A stretch of 59,643 nucleotides of DNA from Acidobacteriota bacterium (GTDB lineage: Bacteria > Acidobacteriota > Aminicenantia > Aminicenantales > Saccharicenantaceae): positions 1-59,643 of the forward strand of contig JAQULR010000002.1 of the NCBI GenBank assembly GCA_028749205.1, in the 5' to 3' direction. The notes under the pieces are model-generated. The model was not told the origin of the DNA, did not search any database, and worked only from the letters and a program-made list of their open reading frames with translations. The position numbers and the translations under genes are program-made. Shown here piece by piece: positions 8,470-50,402 of the stretch. The stretch's first letter is position 1, and each line of letters begins with the position of its first letter.

Positions 8470-9051
8470 GCAGTTAGGTTTTACAGGGAGGTCGTCGAGC
8501 GCTATCTTGACTGCGGCAATCCCTGTTGCGGATTTGCCAGCATCAGGTGTCCCAACTGTGGGGAGGAGCACCTCGTCATGTTCTCCTGTCCAAGCCGCGG
8601 GTTTTGCCCCTCCTGCCACGCCAGGCGGCTGAAGGAGTGGGGCGAGTTGATGGACTACCTGGAATTCATTGCCCGGGCGACTTCCCATATCCCGGATAAG
8701 GGGCAGGTCATGGTGCGGTATCACGGTCTCTACGCCAATGCCCACCGAGGAAAGGTCAAGAAGACAACCCATCAAGCTTTCCCTCTCCAGATGGTGGAGA
8801 AGGAGCTCCAGCTCATTCTCTCTAAGGGCTGGGCCGAGATGATCTTTAAGGTTTATGAGGTTCGCCCGATGCTCTGCCCTCGTTGCGGCGGAAAGATGCG
8901 CATCATCGCTTTCCTCACAGACTAGGCCGTGGTCGACCGCATCATCAACCACCTCAACCTGACCTTTGTCGCCAAAAGACCTCCTCCGCCCCATATCACC
9001 TATCAGGAGCATCTGGTAGCTGCCGAGGCTCCTGTTGAATATTTTTCATGA
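8470..9051 (+). pseudogene. Degenerate IS91-type (Y2/HUH) transposase remnant with internal deletion and premature stop
   Basis: One plus-strand frame with no start codon gives a zinc-binding N-terminus (FYREVVERYLDCGNPCCGFA, then CPNCGEEH, CPSRGFCPSCHARR) of the IS91/IS801 type. It then jumps directly to the far C-terminal region (YLEFIARATSHIPDKG, VMVRYHGLYANAHRGK, YEVRPMLCPRCGGKMRIIAF). The central part with the HUH metal site and catalytic tyrosines is missing. The frame is broken by TAG at 8923-8925, yet homology-like sequence (VVDRIINHLNL) continues to TGA at 9049. The segment is visibly GC-richer than its neighbours, suggesting foreign origin. The element's ends could not be placed. 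Confidence 0.82.
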
Positions 9052-9429
9052 TTCTCTTCTTCCCCAGCAGGAGAAGTTTCTGTGATTTTCGGCGCCGTCG
9101 AGCGTCTTAGTAGCTTCTTGAGCTGCCAGAGATAGTTTCTGCTTGCCCTTGACATCTTTTTTCCCATGATTTATATTTTCTTACGATGGTTGGATGGGTA
9201 AATGGGGATAAACATAAGTCGTCAGCTAGCTCAATTGAAAACTAAATTCCTATTCCTGTTTTATCGAAGGCTCAGGCTTCAACCCAACATAACCTGTATC
9301 ATTCTCCTCTCCGGAAAATCTTAACCTTTTTAGCCTCCCGTCAAAGGAATAACTCATTTAGGTTAAGAGATAACTGCCCATAGTGACTACGACATTTCCC
9401 CTATTTACTTATCTCAATTTGCCGGCAGA
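9052..9429. other. Intergenic region downstream of the transposase remnant
   Basis: This 378-bp region lies between the transposase remnant and the convergent hexosaminidase gene. The first 80 or so bases remain GC-rich and may still be IS-derived (for example CGGCGCCGTCGAGCG near 9089). The rest is AT-rich. I see no gene, tRNA or clear terminator. Confidence 0.45.
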
Positions 9430-11589: not shown

Positions 11590-11667
11590 CTCGGCCTCCT
11601 TGCCTTTCATTATTCACAAAACAGGATATATCTCAAGATAGGAAGCTGCCCCCATCTAAAACCAAAA

Positions 11668-11695
11668 ATCATAGCATCTTTTACGGAATTGTTAA
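11668..11695 (-). promoter_or_regulatory. Candidate sigma-70 promoter for the GH20 gene
   Basis: Minus strand: TTAACA (11690-11695), 16-bp spacer, TATGAT (11668-11673). Both boxes match consensus at five of six positions. The predicted start near 11660 gives a leader of about 70 nt. Confidence 0.5.
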
Positions 11696-11832
11696 AAACT
11701 CTTTCTTCTCTTATGGCAACAAGAGGTTTGCCCTATCCCGCCATCTACCACATCAGGAGATTACGGACTTCAGCCTATAGAAGCTCCACTTAAACCAGGC
11801 TAATGTCCCTGATTTTCCTATATCGCGATTTT

Positions 11833-11882
11833 CTTATCAATGATAATTGAAAATCTGGAGGTATATTCAGTTTTATGAATAA
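11833..11882 (-). repeat. Intergenic stem-loop repeat, copy 1
   Basis: Read on the minus strand, these 50 bases match 41651-41700 at 41 of 50 positions without gaps, by my count. The core is TCAAT-TATC-ATTGA, flanked by the perfect arms GATTTTC and GAAAATC (11827-11855 on the plus strand). It lies between the GH20 promoter and the end of the first BNR gene. The rest of this 394-bp gap (11590-11983) holds only the promoter and an 11-bp tandem repeat. Confidence 0.7.
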
Positions 11883-11939
11883 GGCATAATAATAATGCTT
11901 ACCTACTCCAAGCGAAAAACTTTTTGTCTGTCTACTGCG

Positions 11940-19249: not shown

Positions 19250-19585
19250 AAGCACTCCTTTATAAAAAACTTAAATCTAAAACAAAAAACACTTTTTATC
19301 TCAGGATAATATCTATAGTTATAAAATCTGGTTTTTGTGTCAAGCAAATAACTCTAATTTATCAGGCTTATTATTCTGCTCTCCTACATCTTCCATTAAA
19401 CCAAACAACGTTTTAAACTTTTCAATAATGATTATTATGAAAAATCAGAGACAAGAATGGATTTAAGAAAAGCCCTTCATACCCCTGATTTCCCCTCAGG
19501 TCCTTGATTTCCTCCACTTATAATCTTACTGTTCTTACCGTGGAGATAAGGCAGGTTAACTAGAATCATCAGTTAATAAAGCAGC
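19250..19585. other. Intergenic region upstream of the second BNR gene
   Basis: This 336-bp region contains a minus-strand TTGACA (19336-19341) without a well-spaced -10. It also holds a divergent copy of the stem-loop repeat (19417-19456). AAGGCAGGTTAAC near 19547 is an exact 13-base match to sequence just before the hairpin at 41823, followed here by TTAACT/AGTTAA arms. No gene was found. Confidence 0.4.
19417..19456 (-). repeat. Intergenic stem-loop repeat, divergent copy
   Basis: On the minus strand GTCTCTGATTTTTCATAAT is followed by AATCATTATTGAAAAG, giving a TTTTCA...TGAAAA stem. It resembles the 41671-41707 copy (GTCTCGAGATTTTCAATTAA) but with insertions, so membership in the family is tentative. 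Confidence 0.4.
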
Positions 19586-20401: not shown

Positions 20402-20597
20402 TGCCTCTTTAATTGCCTGCCTCCTTGGCCTTCTTTTTTTCTAAGCCTAAATTGCTTATTGTTAATTTAGGCTAACATACCCTAAAGATAATAGCAACAA
20501 GAATTTTGGCCGCTGGGCCGAATCATATTAAGCACCCCAAATATTGATTTGGCTGCAGCCAGCTACTATTGGCTTATATGCCTCGCGCTTATTTATG

Positions 20598-20623
20598 GAT
20601 TATTTACACATAATTCAAGTTAA
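20598..20623 (+). repeat. Type-2 intergenic hairpin motif, copy A
   Basis: GATTATTTACACATAATTC followed by AAGTTAA. The inner arms ATTAT/ATAAT pair around TTACAC; the outer stem is shorter than in copies B and C. It lies upstream of the predicted promoter of the permease gene, so here it cannot act in that gene's mRNA. Confidence 0.5.
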
Positions 20624-20767
20624 TCTAACTTATCCTCGTCAGAGGCTGACAGACTCTGCTTCTTTTAACTTGGTTGATGCCATCCGCTATCCTTAATAAT
20701 AATCGTTGAAAAAATCGAGAGAAGCTAAGTTCTATATATATATATAAAATCATAATCAGAAAAGAAT

Positions 20768-22069: not shown

Positions 22070-22100
22070 AACCGACGGCTATTTTGGGCCGGTTTTATTT
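22070..22100 (+). terminator. Possible weak terminator after the permease gene
   Basis: AACCG (22070-22074) pairs with CGGTT (22090-22094), followed by TTATTT. The inner stem contains mismatches, so read-through into the dehydrogenase gene is likely. Confidence 0.28.
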
Positions 22101-22368
22101 ATAAAACTGAAGCTGCTCCCAGGTTTTTTGCCATGGATATCATAGATATGATAATCGAGACAGGGGAAAATGAGAGGTAGAGAAAATCGAAGATTTGATA
22201 TGGTTCTTCCTAAAAGGTTTATCTCCTGTAATTTTACTCGGCTATTGCCCCATTCGTTTTCAGGATCTTACCTAAGAAATATTTATTTACCAGGCCCTGG
22301 AACGGCTTGGTATGGAATAAAATAGGAATAAATAATAGTTAGATTGCCTTGATGAAAGGAGTAGGCTA

Positions 22369-23628
22369 ATGAAGACAAAAAAGAATTTTTTAGGTGTCGG
22401 GTTTATTGGGGCGGGTTTTATCACCCGTTTTCATATCAGAGCCTGGGTAGGTGTCCGGAAGGCGGATATTCTGGGAATTTATGACCCAGATATTAAAAGG
22501 GCAGAACAGACCGTGGCTTTAGCCCGTAAGCTTAAAGTTGGTGAGACACGGGTTTTCAAATCAATTACTGACATGGTAGCCGACCCGGCTATAGATGCCA
22601 TTTGGATTTGTTCACCTAACTATACCAGAGTTGAAGTCATGGAAGAGATTACTGAAGCAGTTCTTAAAGGTAAGGGCCAACTTATCGGGGTTACCTGCGA
22701 AAAGCCTCTTGGCCGAAACGTCAGAGAGGCCCGTAAGATGCTCCAACTAGTTAAAAAAGCCAGGCTTCTGGACGGTTATCTGGAAAATCAAGTGTTCGCC
22801 CCGGCGGTAGTTCGAGGTAAGGAAATTATCTGGAATCGTGGAGCCAAGCTCTGTGGCCCGCCTTATTTAGCCAGAGCAGCCGAGGAACACAGTGGGCCTC
22901 ATATGCCCTGGTTCTGGGAGGGCGAGCTTCAAGGAGGAGGTGTTCTTAACGATATGATGTGTCATTCAGTGGAAGAAGCCCGCTTCATGCTGACCCCTCC
23001 TGGAGCTAGCCGTGAGGTACTCACCCCGGTTAAAGTAACTGCTTATGCTTCTTGTCTGAAATGGCAAATATCTGAATATATAGACCATCTAAAGAAAATC
23101 AGTGGCGGCAAGCTTGATTACCAGAATCGCCCATCTGAAGACTTTGCCCGGGCCGTTATTGAATACCGGGACCAGCAGGGCCATATCCTGGTGGTGGAAA
23201 CCACTACTTCCTGGTGCTATGTCGGGGCCGGACTTCGACTTAGTATGGAGCTTCTCGGCCCAGAGTATTCCTTGCAGGTAAATACTCTGGATACAAGCCT
23301 TAAGGTTTTCTTCAGCCGTCGGGTCAAAGGTAAAGCTGGCGAAGACCTGGTAGAAAAACAGAATGCTGAAGTTGGACTGATGCCTGTTGTTTCCAACGAA
23401 GAACATGAGTACGGATATACTGCCGAGGATAGACATATGGTTGAATCTTTTCTGGATGGCCAAAGACCCCTTGAAAATTTCGACGATGGCCTTAACGTTA
23501 CTGAACTCCTGATGACTGCTTACCTCAGCCTTGAAAAAGACAAGACCATGCCCTTCCCTCCTCCTGGTCTGGATAAGTTCGTACCGGCAGTGGCTAAGGG
23601 TCAATGGAATCCCAGAAAGAAAAAGTGA
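22369..23628 (+). CDS. Gfo/Idh/MocA-family NAD(P)-dependent oxidoreductase
   Basis: This 419-residue protein has an N-terminal Rossmann fold (GVGFIGAGFITRFHIRAW, residues 9-26) and the family's EKP catalytic motif at residues 111-113 (CEKPLGRN). A C-terminal alpha/beta domain follows. AAAGGAG lies 7 nt before the ATG. It has no signal peptide and is therefore cytoplasmic. Members oxidise hydroxyl groups of sugars and inositols, and several act as glycoside 3-dehydrogenases. Next to a DUF1080 protein, a 3-keto-glycoside role is plausible (inference). Confidence 0.9.
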   Translation: MKTKKNFLGVGFIGAGFITRFHIRAWVGVRKADILGIYDPDIKRAEQTVALARKLKVGETRVFKSITDMVADPAIDAIWICSPNYTRVEVMEEITEAVLKGKGQLIGVTCEKPLGRNVREARKMLQLVKKARLLDGYLENQVFAPAVVRGKEIIWNRGAKLCGPPYLARAAEEHSGPHMPWFWEGELQGGGVLNDMMCHSVEEARFMLTPPGASREVLTPVKVTAYASCLKWQISEYIDHLKKISGGKLDYQNRPSEDFARAVIEYRDQQGHILVVETTTSWCYVGAGLRLSMELLGPEYSLQVNTLDTSLKVFFSRRVKGKAGEDLVEKQNAEVGLMPVVSNEEHEYGYTAEDRHMVESFLDGQRPLENFDDGLNVTELLMTAYLSLEKDKTMPFPPPGLDKFVPAVAKGQWNPRKKK

Positions 23629-23690: not shown

Positions 23691-23826
23691 GCTAAATGGG
23701 AATACATTTTTAAAGAACAATTTTCAGAAATGAGAACATCGTGATATTAAATAATAGAGCTTATTAAATTAGTTCAGGCCCCTAATTTTCACTGAGAATA
23801 CTTTATCGGGTAGGGAATAAAGTAGA

Positions 23827-23860
23827 TTGATTTTGATTATTTGTGAATAATTCAAATTAA
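23827..23860 (+). repeat. Type-2 intergenic hairpin motif, copy B
   Basis: TTGATTTTG (23827-23835) and ATTATT pair with AATAAT and TCAAATTAA (23852-23860) around loop TGTG. Fourteen of fifteen positions pair if G-U is allowed. It ends 89 nt before the start of the TIM barrel-DUF1080 gene. The 318-bp gap it sits in also has a TATAAT at 23878 without a good -35. Confidence 0.6.
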
Positions 23861-23949
23861 TATAGATATCTTGAGCCTATAATTTGTGCTATTAATAAAA
23901 GAAAACCGTCATTGGTTATAAATGGATAATAGCTTCTAAGGAGGCCATG

Positions 23950-32287: not shown

Positions 32288-34000
32288 ATGAAAAGAATTA
32301 TTTACGCTGTTGGTACCCTGATTTTATTTGTCTTAGGCTTAGTCTTAATTCTAAACCAAAGAACTAAGCCAGTGGCAGAAGACCGGGTTTTAATCCATGA
32401 AAATTGCACTGTCATAATGGTCGGGAAAAAGGCCTCAGTTGATGGCTCAACTATGACCACCCATACGGCCGATTGCGGGATGTGTGACTGGACTTGGCGC
32501 TATGTTCCAGCAGCTGATCACCGACCCGGTGAGACCAGGAAGATCTATAGAATTTCTCAGGTCAGAACCTGGCCTCCGGAAGAAGGTCTTAAATGGGATT
32601 TAATAAAAAGGGATTTTACTGGACTGGAAATTCCTGAAGTGCCCCATACTTTTGGTTATTTGCATGGGGTTTTCGGTTATATAAATGATCAACAATTGGC
32701 TATCGGGGAATCAACCATCGGCAACAGATCTAAGATGTCCAACCACACTCAAACCCCAGCTTTTAACATAACTATGTTAAGCTTGCTGGCTATGGAGAGA
32801 TGCCGGACGGCTAGGGAAGCTATTACTCTAATGGGTTCCTTAGCTGAAAAATATGGGTATGGCGGAGAAGATGGTGGAGAGATGCTAGCCGTAGCTGATC
32901 CTGAGGAAGTCTGGGTCTTTGAGATAATGCCAGTTGGACCTCTATGGACCCCAGATAGCGGCCAGCCCGGAGCTGTCTGGTGTGCTCAGAGAGTTCCCGA
33001 TGACCAGGTCAGTGTCTGTCCCAACGAATCGAGGATAGGCCAGATTGACCTGGATAACCCTGATTATTTTATGGCTTCATCCAATGTGATCTCCTATGCA
33101 GTTGAAAACAAATTCTGGAACCCTCAGGGTGGCCAGCCTTTTAGCTGGAAAAAGGCCTACAGTCCGGTTGAAGGCAGTGCTGATAAACAGCCCCGGAGAA
33201 GCAGGATGTGGCGCTTTTTTGATCTGGTCTGTCCTTCTGCCGGCTTCCCAGCCTCTCTTCCCAATATGGATTTTCCCTTCTCAGTTAAGCCAGATAAACT
33301 TCTCTCGGTTAAAGATGTTATGAATCTTACCAGAGATAAAGGCTACGGAACTTTCTTTGACCCGGTTCGTGGCCTCAGAGGTGGTCCATTTAAGAATCCC
33401 AACTATGATGATTCAGCCCGTTTGATCAGTTCAAGAACGGTAGAATACACCACCGTTACTCAAGGCCGGAGCTGGCTACCCTCTGAAATCGGTGGTCTGG
33501 TCTGGTTAGCCTGGGGAACACAAGACACCTCTTGCTTTATGCCTTTCTACGCAGGGATTAAGGCTTTCCCCTCTTCTTTTAGCCAGGGAGACCATTGGGT
33601 TCTGAATCGTCAATCAGCACGCTGGGCCTTTGATTATGTCGACTTTCACACTCAGGTGGCTTACTCGGTTGCTATAGAAGATATCAGAAAAGCTCAAGAA
33701 ACCTGGGAGGACGGGGCCATCAAGCAGATCCCAGAAATAGATCGGCAGGCGACAGAGTTTTATAAAAGGAATAAGAAAAAAGCTTCAGATTTTTTAACCG
33801 CTTTCTGCCTTAACAATGCTGACCAGGTAGTTAAAGCTTGGTGGCAGCTTGGGGATGAATTGCTAGTTAAGTTTAATCATCTTAACTATTACAATGTTGA
33901 AAGGCGTGCTATCGAAAGAAAGAAGATGGATTTTCCTGAAAATTGGAAAAAAGCCGTTAAATTTATAGACATAATCTATGAAGACGCTAAAACTTTTTAA
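32288..34000 (+). CDS. C69-family (PepD/U34) dipeptidase, membrane-anchored, copy 1
   Basis: This 570-residue Ntn-hydrolase has an N-terminal hydrophobic helix (about 5-22). The conserved Cys40 starts the mature chain (NCTVIMVGKKASVDGSTM). Family marks follow: GESTIGNRSK, GEDGGEMLAVADPEEVWVFE, PNESRIGQIDLDNPDYF and SCFMPFYAG. C69 enzymes become active when N-terminal processing exposes the nucleophilic cysteine, and they cleave dipeptides. The anchor and upstream residues must therefore be removed. It is 26 bp upstream of a close paralogue, indicating tandem duplication. Confidence 0.92.
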   Translation: MKRIIYAVGTLILFVLGLVLILNQRTKPVAEDRVLIHENCTVIMVGKKASVDGSTMTTHTADCGMCDWTWRYVPAADHRPGETRKIYRISQVRTWPPEEGLKWDLIKRDFTGLEIPEVPHTFGYLHGVFGYINDQQLAIGESTIGNRSKMSNHTQTPAFNITMLSLLAMERCRTAREAITLMGSLAEKYGYGGEDGGEMLAVADPEEVWVFEIMPVGPLWTPDSGQPGAVWCAQRVPDDQVSVCPNESRIGQIDLDNPDYFMASSNVISYAVENKFWNPQGGQPFSWKKAYSPVEGSADKQPRRSRMWRFFDLVCPSAGFPASLPNMDFPFSVKPDKLLSVKDVMNLTRDKGYGTFFDPVRGLRGGPFKNPNYDDSARLISSRTVEYTTVTQGRSWLPSEIGGLVWLAWGTQDTSCFMPFYAGIKAFPSSFSQGDHWVLNRQSARWAFDYVDFHTQVAYSVAIEDIRKAQETWEDGAIKQIPEIDRQATEFYKRNKKKASDFLTAFCLNNADQVVKAWWQLGDELLVKFNHLNYYNVERRAIERKKMDFPENWKKAVKFIDIIYEDAKTF

Positions 34001-34026
34001 ATTACTGATTAATATAGGGAGGAAAA

Positions 34027-35769
34027 ATGACAAAAGACTTGAGAAGAACCAAATTTGTCAGGTTCTTTTTTCCAGCCTTGACTGCGGTCATAGCTATTCT
34101 GGCTGTATTTCTTATCACCGGCTCCCCGATTCCACCTGATCCCAACCTGGAGATTAGCCGACCTTCAGATAATTGTACTTCAATTTTGGTTGGAAAACTG
34201 GCTTCTACGGATGGTTCAACCATGACTACCCACACCTGTGACTGTGGACTGTGCGATTGGACCTGGCGCCATGTTCCAGGAGCTAAACACCAGCCCGGAG
34301 AAACGAGAAAAATCTATCATATTTCCCAATTTAAGACCTGGCCTCCGGAAGAAGGCCTTAAATGGGATTTAATAAAAAGAGATTTTACCGGTCTGGAGAT
34401 TCCTGAAGTCCCCTATACCTATGCTTATCACCACGGAATGTTCGGCTACCTGAATGAAAAGCAGGTGGCTATTGGGGAATCAACCATCGGCAATGTCCGC
34501 AAGCTGGACAATCCGACTCCGACTCCAGCTTTTGATATAACCATGTTAACAATTATCGCTATGGAAAGAGCTAGCACTGCTCGGGAAGCCATAAAAATCA
34601 TGGGCGAGCTGGCTGAAAAATATGGCTATGGTTTTCACGATAATGGGGAAATGCTAGCCGTGGCCGATCCTCAGGAAGTCTGGATTTTTGAGATTATCCC
34701 CGTTGGTCCTCTCTGGACTCCAGAGAGTGGAAAACCCGGAGCCGTCTGGTGTGCTCAGAGAGTGCCTGACGACCACGTCAGTGTCTGTCCCAATGAATCT
34801 AGAATTGGCGAAATAGACCTGAATAATCCAGATTATTTTATGGCTTCTTCTAATGTTATTTCTTGCGCTATTGACAACGGTCTTTACGACCAAAATAGCG
34901 GAAAACCATTCAACTGGAAGAAAGCTTATTCACCTATAAACGAAAGTGCTGTTAGCTCCAACGGACGATATCAGAGGCTTTGGAGATTCTTTGACCTGGT
35001 AGCCCCATCGCTCAAACTATCGCCCAGCACTCCGAACATGGATCTCCCCTTCTCAGTTAAACCCGACCGAAAAATCTCAGTTGAAGATGTGATCAATCTA
35101 ACTCGCGATAGAAGCTATGGAACCCAATTTGATCCTACCAGTGGTATCCGCGGCGGACCATTTAAGAATCCAAATTATTATCGTCAAACCAGAACCATAT
35201 CTGATAGCCGGGCTGAATACTCTACGGTCACCCAATGCCGAGATTGGTTGCCCGACCCGATTGGGGGAATTGTCTGGATTTCTTTTGGTGCTCAGGATAC
35301 CTCTTGCTATATGCCTTTTTACGCTGGGGTTACTGAACTACCGAAATCCTTTTCCATCGGTGACCACTGGGTTTTGAACCGGGAATCAGCTCGTTGGGCT
35401 TTTGACTACGTTGATTTTCATGTCCAGGTAATTTATTCTGAAGCTATCAAGGATGTCCAGCAGGCCTTGTTGAAATATGAAAAACCTATTATTGACCAAA
35501 TACCGGAGATTGACAAAAAAGCTGCTGAGTTATATGGCAAAAACCAGAAAGAAGCCATTAAATTCCTGACCGGTTTCTGTCTGAATAACGCCCAAAATGT
35601 GGTAAAAGCCTGGTGGAACCTTGGTGACCAGCTTCTGGTAAAATATAATCACCTTTACTATTATGACGTCGAAAAACGAACCTATCAGAGACGGTTTCCC
35701 ACTTATCCTGATACCTGGCAGAAAGCGGTTAAAGCTTTTGATATACTAATAGAGTCGGAAGGAAAATAA
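34027..35769 (+). CDS. C69-family (PepD/U34) dipeptidase, membrane-anchored, copy 2
   Basis: This 580-residue paralogue of the preceding gene shares long identical blocks such as TWPPEEGLKWDLIKRDFTGL and DYFMASSNVIS. The nucleophile is Cys50 (DNCTSILVGKLASTDGSTM), downstream of a hydrophobic anchor (about 12-32). GGGAGG lies just before the ATG. Both copies keep the nucleophile and the metal- and acid-rich DPEE/DPQE segments, so both are probably active, perhaps with different specificity. The next gene begins 17 bp downstream. Confidence 0.92.
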   Translation: MTKDLRRTKFVRFFFPALTAVIAILAVFLITGSPIPPDPNLEISRPSDNCTSILVGKLASTDGSTMTTHTCDCGLCDWTWRHVPGAKHQPGETRKIYHISQFKTWPPEEGLKWDLIKRDFTGLEIPEVPYTYAYHHGMFGYLNEKQVAIGESTIGNVRKLDNPTPTPAFDITMLTIIAMERASTAREAIKIMGELAEKYGYGFHDNGEMLAVADPQEVWIFEIIPVGPLWTPESGKPGAVWCAQRVPDDHVSVCPNESRIGEIDLNNPDYFMASSNVISCAIDNGLYDQNSGKPFNWKKAYSPINESAVSSNGRYQRLWRFFDLVAPSLKLSPSTPNMDLPFSVKPDRKISVEDVINLTRDRSYGTQFDPTSGIRGGPFKNPNYYRQTRTISDSRAEYSTVTQCRDWLPDPIGGIVWISFGAQDTSCYMPFYAGVTELPKSFSIGDHWVLNRESARWAFDYVDFHVQVIYSEAIKDVQQALLKYEKPIIDQIPEIDKKAAELYGKNQKEAIKFLTGFCLNNAQNVVKAWWNLGDQLLVKYNHLYYYDVEKRTYQRRFPTYPDTWQKAVKAFDILIESEGK

Positions 35770-40370: not shown

Positions 40371-41660
40371 ATGTCTGAACCAGATACTATCCTAAATCTG
40401 TTCACTAGAACCCGCAGAAGGTTTCCCGCTTTAAATGGGAGCTCGGTCGGAGAAAAATATCTATACTTAAATAGCGGGGCAGGTAGCCTCATGGTTGATA
40501 GCGCCCTTCAGGCTATCAACTCAGCCGCTTCCTCACTAAACCCGATGCCCGGAGAAGTAACTCCCGTCGAAAAACAGACCTTTCAATTTCATAATCAAGT
40601 CCGGAAGATGGTAGCTGAATTCATTGGAGCTAGCAGTCTTGAAGAAATTTCTTTTCATTTTTCGACTACCAACGCCCTGTTTAATCTGGCCTTCTCTCTG
40701 GGCTCAGTTTTTAAACCGGGCCAAAACTGCTTGGTAACTGATTTGGATCATTTTGCTAATATCAGTCCCTGGGAAACTGTAGCTGCCTCTTTGGGGGCAG
40801 AGATCCGAACTGTCAGACTAAACCCTGATCTCACTCTTAACCGGCTTGATTTACTTGACAAACTCGATGCTAACACGGTCATGGTGGCTGTAACGGCCGC
40901 CAGCAATGCTCTGGGAACAATCTTACCCTTAACCGACCTAATTTCTGAAATAAAGGAAAAATCCAGAGCTTTAGTTGTAGTAGACGCCGTACATTTAGCT
41001 CCCCATTCTCCTATCGATGTCAGGGAAATTGGTTGTGATTTCCTGGCATTTTCGGGATACAAGATATTCGGCCCGATGGTGGGAATTCTTTTTAGCCGGA
41101 AAGAGGTCCTAAGCCAGGTGACTCCCTATCGGGTGGAGACCAACCGAAATAGCCCTCCATATTTCTGGGAGCAGGGCATGCTGCCAAATATTAACCTGGC
41201 CGGGCTTAAGGGAGCCTTAGACTACCTTTTTGAACTGGGTCAGATTGTTGTTAAGAAAGATCCATCTGCAACCCCGCCAAAGGTTTTTCGGCGAGCTATG
41301 GAAGCTATAAAAAAATACGAACAGAGTCTTAGCCTTTATTTCCTAGAGCGGCTGAAAAAACTTAACTCTTCCCGGCTCAGGCTTTATGGTATCAATAATT
41401 CTTCCAAGGTAGTCTCTCGGACTCCGACATTTGCCATAGAAATTTCTGGGCTGAACCCGACTGAGCTCAAGAAACTTTTCTGGGAAACAGGACGGATAGT
41501 CATTGCCGATGGTAATCATTACTCAGCAGCAGTAGTCAGGCATTTAAAAAAGCAGGCTCTTAATCGGGTTAGCCTGGCCCATTATGACTCTCCGGAATCT
41601 ATTGACCTGTTTTTCGAATCTCTGGAGAAAATTATTTTTTTTAATAGGCATTATTCATGA
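40371..41660 (+). CDS. Class V PLP-dependent aminotransferase/cysteine desulfurase-like protein
   Basis: This 429-residue fold-type I PLP enzyme has the cofactor-binding aspartate Asp205 in VVVDAVHLAPH and the Schiff-base lysine Lys231 in FSGYKIFGP. The class V openers YLNSGAGSLMV and DHFANISPW are also present. Relatives include cysteine desulfurases, isopenicillin-N epimerase-like enzymes and selenocysteine lyases. The catalytic cysteine loop of true desulfurases is not evident, so the reaction is open. The last four codons overlap a copy of the intergenic repeat (41649-41707). Confidence 0.86.
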   Translation: MSEPDTILNLFTRTRRRFPALNGSSVGEKYLYLNSGAGSLMVDSALQAINSAASSLNPMPGEVTPVEKQTFQFHNQVRKMVAEFIGASSLEEISFHFSTTNALFNLAFSLGSVFKPGQNCLVTDLDHFANISPWETVAASLGAEIRTVRLNPDLTLNRLDLLDKLDANTVMVAVTAASNALGTILPLTDLISEIKEKSRALVVVDAVHLAPHSPIDVREIGCDFLAFSGYKIFGPMVGILFSRKEVLSQVTPYRVETNRNSPPYFWEQGMLPNINLAGLKGALDYLFELGQIVVKKDPSATPPKVFRRAMEAIKKYEQSLSLYFLERLKKLNSSRLRLYGINNSSKVVSRTPTFAIEISGLNPTELKKLFWETGRIVIADGNHYSAAVVRHLKKQALNRVSLAHYDSPESIDLFFESLEKIIFFNRHYS

Positions 41661-41707
41661 AACTGAACATGTCTCGAGATTTTCAATTAACATTAAAAAA
41701 ATCGAGA
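41649..41707 (+). repeat. Intergenic stem-loop repeat, copy 2
   Basis: Bases 41651-41700 match the minus strand at 11833-11882 at 41 of 50 positions and 50251-50300 at 35 of 50, without gaps by my count. GTCTCGA...TCGAGAC arms (41671-41708) extend the hairpin here. The 5' end supplies the last codons and stop of the aminotransferase gene. Confidence 0.72.
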
Positions 41708-41822
41708 CAAGTTAAAATCAGGAAGACCTAAGAGAAAGATGGGAGCCGATGAGATTTTCTTAAATCGGTTGGTATCCCACCTTATCCCTAAGAAATATTT
41801 AACAGGTCCAGACTAAGGCAGG

Positions 41823-41856
41823 TTAACCTGGATTATTTGCGAATAACCCAGGTTAA
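41823..41856 (+). repeat. Type-2 intergenic hairpin motif, copy C
   Basis: TTAACCTGG (41823-41831) pairs perfectly with CCAGGTTAA (41848-41856). Inner TTATT/AATAA extends the stem to 14 paired positions of 15 around loop TGCG. It ends 28 nt before the aminotransferase ATG, just ahead of AAGGAG. Confidence 0.65.
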
Positions 41857-41884
41857 AATAAAAAGTCATCATAAGGAGTATAAA

Positions 41885-50145: not shown

Positions 50146-50248
50146 GCTCAAGCTCCTTGGTTTTAAAATAATAAAATAACGATTTCCATTATCAGTAAGC
50201 CCAATGAGGCTGTCAATCTTTTTTTCTTTTCTCCCTTTTACTAATCGA

Positions 50249-50308
50249 CATTATTTATGAGATGAAACATGTCTTAGGATTTTCAACTATCGTTGATATG
50301 ACAAACGG
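50249..50308 (+). repeat. Intergenic stem-loop repeat, copy 3
   Basis: Bases 50251-50300 align without gaps to 41651-41700 (35 of 50 identical). The central stem reads TCAAC-TATC-GTTGA (50283-50296), a compensated T-A to C-G change relative to copy 1 (TCAAT-TATC-ATTGA). It lies between the divergent C69 and WbqC-like genes. Confidence 0.68.
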
Positions 50309-50402
50309 CAGCTGGTAAAATAATATAGCTCTTCTCCAAATTAGTTGATGAAAATTCATCGGGGAAGGAGAGAAAGATACGAAGTGGGGGAAATTTTAAA
50401 AA

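Follow-up and report, generated by a model that had tools for sequence, protein, structure and literature searches.

Short MITE-like elements at TTAA-like sites between genes are amplified in a single species from an uncultured genus of Acidobacteriota

According to PMC2229807, the RUP element is ~107 bp long, is present in 108 intergenic copies in one genome, carries terminal inverted repeats, has TA in its target and shares its ends with the resident IS630-Spn1. The same source presents the Correia elements (NEMIS) of Neisseria as AT-rich MITEs with a base-paired transcript and with size classes distinguished by an internal insert. The integration of piggyBac is specific to TTAA and leaves a 4-bp TTAA duplication, as set out in PMC7351741, and RAYT genes are, in the account given by PMC2817692, always flanked by two inverted REPs. 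The family of repeats reported here resembles RUP in being short, high-copy and intergenic, with terminal inverted repeats and TA in its target, but its length varies (85-321 bp), its right end is palindromic, and no resident partner was found. It can be likened to the Correia elements in general description (an AT-rich MITE, a base-paired transcript and insert-based size classes), whereas it lives in an unrelated host and has a TTAA-like target and a palindromic right end. A TTAA target is shared with the piggyBac superfamily and its distant prokaryotic relatives, the IS1380 elements, one site (site E, below) being variable; however, no IS1380 transposase is present in the genome, and a 4-bp duplication is likely rather than established. 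With REP, BIME and REPIN sequences the family has in common high-copy extragenic palindromes, mosaic arrangements and a Y1 transposase in the genome, but its elements do not flank the Y1 gene. As far as our searches go, the family is undescribed: the literature search returned neither a description of it nor a paper joining 'Candidatus Aminicenantes' with miniature inverted-repeat. The general picture of bacterial repeats is unchanged by it.

The stretch analysed (the window; 59,643 nt, 84.6% coding) comprises positions 1-59643 of contig C35 of a 2.12-Mb draft genome (101 contigs, 91.9% complete). A preliminary description of the window had noted three ~50-nt intergenic stem-loop repeats. These were found where it had placed them. 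In a gap-free alignment the other two match copy 1 at 41/50 and 35/50 positions, and the three exceed chance, since a 19-base core with up to three mismatches gave three matches against 0.07 expected from dinucleotide shuffles. A BLAST search with copy 1 as query returned 40 matches across the draft genome. A 67-nt sequence-only model of the left end (R1) detected at least 139 matches at E ≤ 1 and at least 107 at E ≤ 0.001, both being lower bounds because a limited number of candidates was scored; the genome-wide search that had been proposed yielded copies beyond chance-level matches. The ~50-mer originally noticed is the left part only of a longer element, and the features identified are given in Table 1. 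Among the weaker relatives that had been suggested, the stretch at 20697-20726 belongs to a real element, that at 19417-19456 is weak by sequence although the region is longer than in congeners, and that at 1821-1845 gave no R1 match at E ≤ 1. The 56 nt just downstream of copy 3 (50324-50379) match contig C100 at 91%; they may be a repeat of their own or else the distal end of copy 3.

Table 1. Features identified in the window, and the Y1 gene elsewhere in the same genome (G000). R1 and R2 are the left-end and right-end models.
Feature	Position	Strand	Match or remark	Length compared with congeners
Copy 1, complete element, ~208 bp between two TTAA	41641..41856	+	between two aminotransferase genes	
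Copy 1, left end (part first noticed)	41648..41699	+	R1 E = 3e-16	
Copy 1, right-end match	41806-41862	+	R2 E = 8.5e-12	
Copy 1, right-end palindrome	41823..41856	+	model R2 stem columns 18-51	
Copy 2, left-end type termini on both sides	11607..11887	-	R1 E = 4.7e-17 and E = 0.001	~290-300 nt longer; junctions not base-resolved
Copy 2, left end	11826-11887	-		
Copy 2, partial inverted left end	11607-11639	+		
Copy 3, left end; right border not delimited	50243..50307	+	R1 E = 9.8e-12	roughly 120-130 nt longer than in G002, G011 (HSP spacing, alignment)
Degenerate element (includes 20697-20726)	20587..20738	-	R1 E = 0.014, R2 E = 2e-4	~256 nt longer than in 8 congeners
Very degenerate left end (overlaps 19417-19456), weak by sequence	19385..19444	+	R1 E = 0.22	~259 nt longer than in G002, G009, G011
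Degenerate left end	22089..22157	+	R1 E = 8.5e-4	212-230 nt longer than in G011, G015
Right end without recognisable left end	23810..23866	+	R2 E = 2.7e-7	~266-275 nt longer than in G010, G011, G015
RAYT-like Y1 match	G000:C58 (L031) 104311-104637		flanked by GGGACAC...GTGTCCC palindromes	

Comparison with congeneric genomes revealed orthologous sites that are empty. At the site of copy 1, 13 of 18 congeners have both aminotransferase genes as neighbours across a short spacer, the entire element being absent, and the remaining five have unrelated sequence upstream of the second aminotransferase gene, also without the element. At site A (locus L167; C44:31747-31919) the element is absent in all ten aligned congeners, the length difference being exactly 167 nt in eight and 176-178 nt in two, and site E (also L167; C44:25276-25335 together with its right end) is empty in all three aligned congeners. 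At six other sites in the window (11.8, 19.4, 20.6, 22.1, 23.8 and 50.2 kb) the region is ~120-300 nt longer than in the congeners for which HSP spacing was read, which is weaker evidence because these junctions are not base-resolved. At the resolved loci each element was inserted whole, between genes and at a TTAA-like site, and congeners lack it. The family explains several enlarged intergenic regions of the window. Empty sites can be read in as many as 13 congeners. As had been described, all strong copies are intergenic and one overlaps the 3' end of a gene: the stop codon of the ORF at 40371-41660 lies inside copy 1. This insertion replaced the end of an aminotransferase gene, whose TGA stop is supplied by the element.

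The repeats are very probably a family of non-autonomous DNA transposons, that is, MITEs. The earlier suggestion of a dispersed, structured, MITE-like repeat agrees with the copy number, the inverted termini, the empty orthologous sites and the self-complementarity of whole elements. Complete elements measure 85-321 bp, have variable middles, carry no gene of their own and are mostly self-complementary as a unit. In 30 oriented and aligned copies the left border is sharp (TTAACCTGC); the element starts with TTAACCTGCATTATTCA and ends in a hairpin. Its termini are nearly inverted (TTAACCTGSATTATTCA), with TTAACCTGCATTATTCA corresponding to TTAACCTGGATTATTCA at the opposite end, and these terminal inverted repeats are imperfect in many copies; left and right ends are not equivalent. 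Conservation is high in the core TTATTCATAAAACTGAACATGTCTCGAGATTTTCAATTA. Middles fall into a short class (total ~105-160 nt), a medium class with an inner palindrome GGGACATGATACGATTTTC...AAATCGGTTCGTGTCCC (total ~180-215 nt) and a long class with an extra insert of ~100 nt (total ~300 nt). The middle is followed by GAATAAAGCAGG, the inverse of the left terminus, and then by a closing palindrome, TTRACCTGGATTATT-N4-AATAATCCAGGTYAA, and this palindromic right end looks like two terminal repeats placed head to head. Left ends are present at both sides of some elements (window 11607-11887, L014 and L205), and deletion derivatives with common ends were seen among the copies. The copy at L205 (G000:C1, ~2205-2308) is ~100 bp long, with two left ends facing each other in a nearly perfect palindrome.

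Left and right ends were paired using 120 of the 139 left-end hits (the 19 omitted all had E > 0.014) and 72 of the 84 right-end hits in the same genome (the 12 omitted matched the same palindromes on the opposite strand). Within 3 kb, 37 left-right pairs resulted: 33 are distinct elements measuring 85-321 bp, one (420 bp) draws on a right end already used, and three have ends 1460, 1746 and 1772 bp apart. Where a right end was found without a left end, the interior was degenerate, masked or absent.

For copy 1 and site A, one TTAA is present in the empty site, against a TTAA-like 4-mer on either side of the element in the filled one. At site E, congeners read TTAA, TTAT or TTGG, and the element in the filled site is bounded by TTAT on both sides. 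Among 59 left ends, TTAA was found in 14 and TTAG in 8; TTAA is thereby 17 times above its background in nearby flanks (1.4% of 4-mers), and the first T and last A are also conserved. The flanking 4-mers of the two ends agree at 49 of 88 positions, compared with 42.3 in shuffled pairs (p = 0.044; 22 of the 23 listed elements, one with incomplete sequence being left out), and no agreement between the flanks was observed in a control placed 4 nt further out. Many copies have unequal flanks. A duplication of TTAA is likely, because of the TTAA-like sequences at empty and filled sites and the agreement of the flanking 4-mers; a duplication of TA fits most of the data too. The termini of piggyBac start with CC next to TTAA. 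Position 2 of the TTAA-CC junction in the present family frequently carries G, with a corresponding C at the right end.

The stem TCAAT-TATC-ATTGA, which the preliminary description had assigned to copy 1, belongs to copy 2, copy 1 reading TCAAT-TAAC-ATTAA. A compensatory base change had been proposed for this stem, with pairing expected to be conserved in further copies. Over 31 copies the left-end covariation score appeared to be of weak significance, 22 of 500 shuffles reaching it; with 60 distinct copies it was no better than in shuffles (116 of 500 reached it), and the compensatory change does not hold. RNAalifold gave no consensus structure for the left end. The right-end palindrome covaries, with 84.8% of cells paired in 14 copies (score reached by 24 of 500 shuffles) and 87.0% in 35 distinct rows (3 of 500), the latter alignment leaning to the model and including some opposite-strand matches. 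Whole elements folded much more stably than shuffled sequence: z lay below -2 in 15 of 18 cases (range -9.0 to -0.6; z = -4.0 for copy 1), and none of 18 flank controls reached this level. Such folding needs no RNA function, because inverted ends give dyad symmetry.

R1 at E ≤ 0.001 was positive in six of 40 genomes (this genome and 39 relatives), with at least 107 copies here, 12 in G018, two each in G001, G007 and G017, and one in G016; no match at this threshold was found in 13 congeners or in 21 genomes outside the genus. A survey of the class, which from its gene content is probably Aminicenantia, placed the repeat under stricter filters in 6 of 142 genomes, all from the one genus, and a distant-mode search of plasmid and phage collections gave no match to it. 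When orthologues were compared for shared old insertions, none of 12 distinct congener copies lay beside a clear orthologue of a gene adjoining a copy examined in this genome, the sole match above 45% identity being a 50-residue stretch. Amplification is restricted to a single species in this uncultured genus of Acidobacteriota, and the family is nearly absent from that species' relatives. Judging from ~107 copies of ~180 bp, the burst probably amounts to ~1% of the genome.

The placement of the copies could also reflect selection near genes, on a regulatory RNA element, a terminator or a protein-binding site, and the preliminary description had considered a regulator target. In the 59 of 107 left-end matches at E ≤ 0.001 for which gene context was determined (ORFs called at ≥90 aa), 54 copies lie between ORFs, five touch a gene edge and none is inside a gene; together with the structured whole and the well-conserved core, this would suit such a role. 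The orientation of neighbours in the frame of the element (55 copies with both neighbours available) was ++ in 18, -+ in 18, -- in 13 and +- in 6, so that divergent gene pairs outnumber convergent ones by 18 to 6, though divergent regions may simply be longer. Codirectional and opposite copies are however mixed (18 and 13), and as no single direction prevails, the copies do not have a promoter, leader or terminator role in common. Element-sized insertions missing at orthologous loci, amplification in a single species, an Rfam scan of the window with nothing at the gathering threshold, and the lack of left-end covariation over 60 copies also argue against selection for a regulatory function, which we consider very improbable.

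Two other transposition enzymes were weighed; these readings overlap with the MITE reading, and their probabilities and its own do not sum to one. The search for a RAYT-type transposase, which the preliminary description had proposed, identified a single Y1 transposase gene in the genome. The repeats could be REP/REPIN sequences or another IS200/IS605-type element moved single-stranded by this Y1 (RAYT-like) enzyme, which would insert them 3' of TTAA without duplication, the TTAA of the left flank acting as cleavage site and the right-end hairpin as recognition signal. A palindromic and covarying right end is consistent with this, as are the outer arms of the inner palindrome, which in 8 of 30 copies and in none of 30 controls resemble those of the palindromes flanking the Y1 gene. 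But the Y1 gene of this genome has GGGACAC...GTGTCCC palindromes around it and no copy of the repeat within ~1.4 kb, so the Y1 palindrome and the repeat look like different systems. Y1 genes are moreover present in 18 of 19 genomes of the genus, including all 13 that lack the repeat, and none was found in G016, one of the six that carry it. Near-inverted ends, and elements with two left ends, also sit poorly with single-stranded movement by Y1, and both this origin and a REP-like status in the RAYT sense appear unlikely to us. An IS630/Tc1-mariner-type enzyme with TA duplication, such as has been proposed for RUP, the outer T and A being a mere target preference, would alter the enzyme in our preferred explanation and leave its MITE part intact. 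TA is contained in TTAA, so the empty sites fit; the G at the junction and the C at the right end read as if part of the element; and, according to PMC2229807, a terminal TA is shared by most of the bacterial MITEs so far described. Against it stand the conservation of the first T and last A and the TTAT on both sides of site E, and we hold an IS630-type enzyme to be possible, if rather doubtful.

The Y1 gene and its palindromes may constitute a RAYT/REP system typical of the genus, a palindrome of this class being near the gene at 7 of 12 congener Y1 loci examined. At L031, L236, L237, L238, L240, L241, L242 and L244, GGGACAC-loop-GTGTCCC stands on both sides of the Y1 gene or nearby, with a loop that varies among congeners and constant arms. 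At L199 (G000:C70, ~222-356) the inner palindrome comes after a partial left end, and a Y1-type palindrome, GGGACACGAGAGTGTGTCCC, adjoins it on the far side.

For the MITE family, we lean moderately towards a TTAA-duplicating DDE mechanism. A cut-and-paste DDE transposase acting in trans would have bound the terminal repeats and joined the repeat ends to TTAA targets with a 4-bp duplication, like piggyBac. Set against this are the level of support for the duplication (p = 0.04, with many unequal flanks and TA fitting most data), the imperfect and non-equivalent termini, and the outcome of the search for an enzyme. The IS1380 profile (PF13701) is absent from the genome, of which ~92% was covered, and gave one split weak match in one of 18 congeners; no recurring ORF was found in 372 stop-to-stop frames near copies, and no autonomous partner with the same ends either there or among the PF13701 matches. 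Downstream of partial left ends, no transposase-like recurrence was seen in any of the 17 usable regions among 18 (L209 starts at a contig end). The left-right pairs of 1.4-1.8 kb were considered as autonomous copies; because a GFO/IDH/MocA oxidoreductase gene (22369-23628) lies within the one pair found in the window, that pair was read as two separate copies, and the two other pairs, included in the ORF recurrence test, gave no recurring ORF. The mobilising transposase may have been lost, may be unassembled or may belong to a family other than those searched, and the sharp ends and target sequence provide a handle for finding it. The present copies would then be passengers able to change a stop codon and to add hairpins to operon transcripts. 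It is also conceivable, although improbable, that this is a bacterial TTAA-targeting MITE family in which the termini are piggyBac-like, the right end represents the terminal repeat dimerised as a palindrome, and a RAYT-type palindrome has been captured in the interior; if so, two unrelated transposition systems could act on one element.

Two further observations concern repeats of other kinds in the window. Positions 9000-9258 have two matches on contig C74, with 83% and 89% identity, and represent a repeat outside the MITE family. At 32288-35769, adjacent ORFs of 570 and 580 aa share DNA stretches that are 72-76% identical and in register, a tandem gene duplication.
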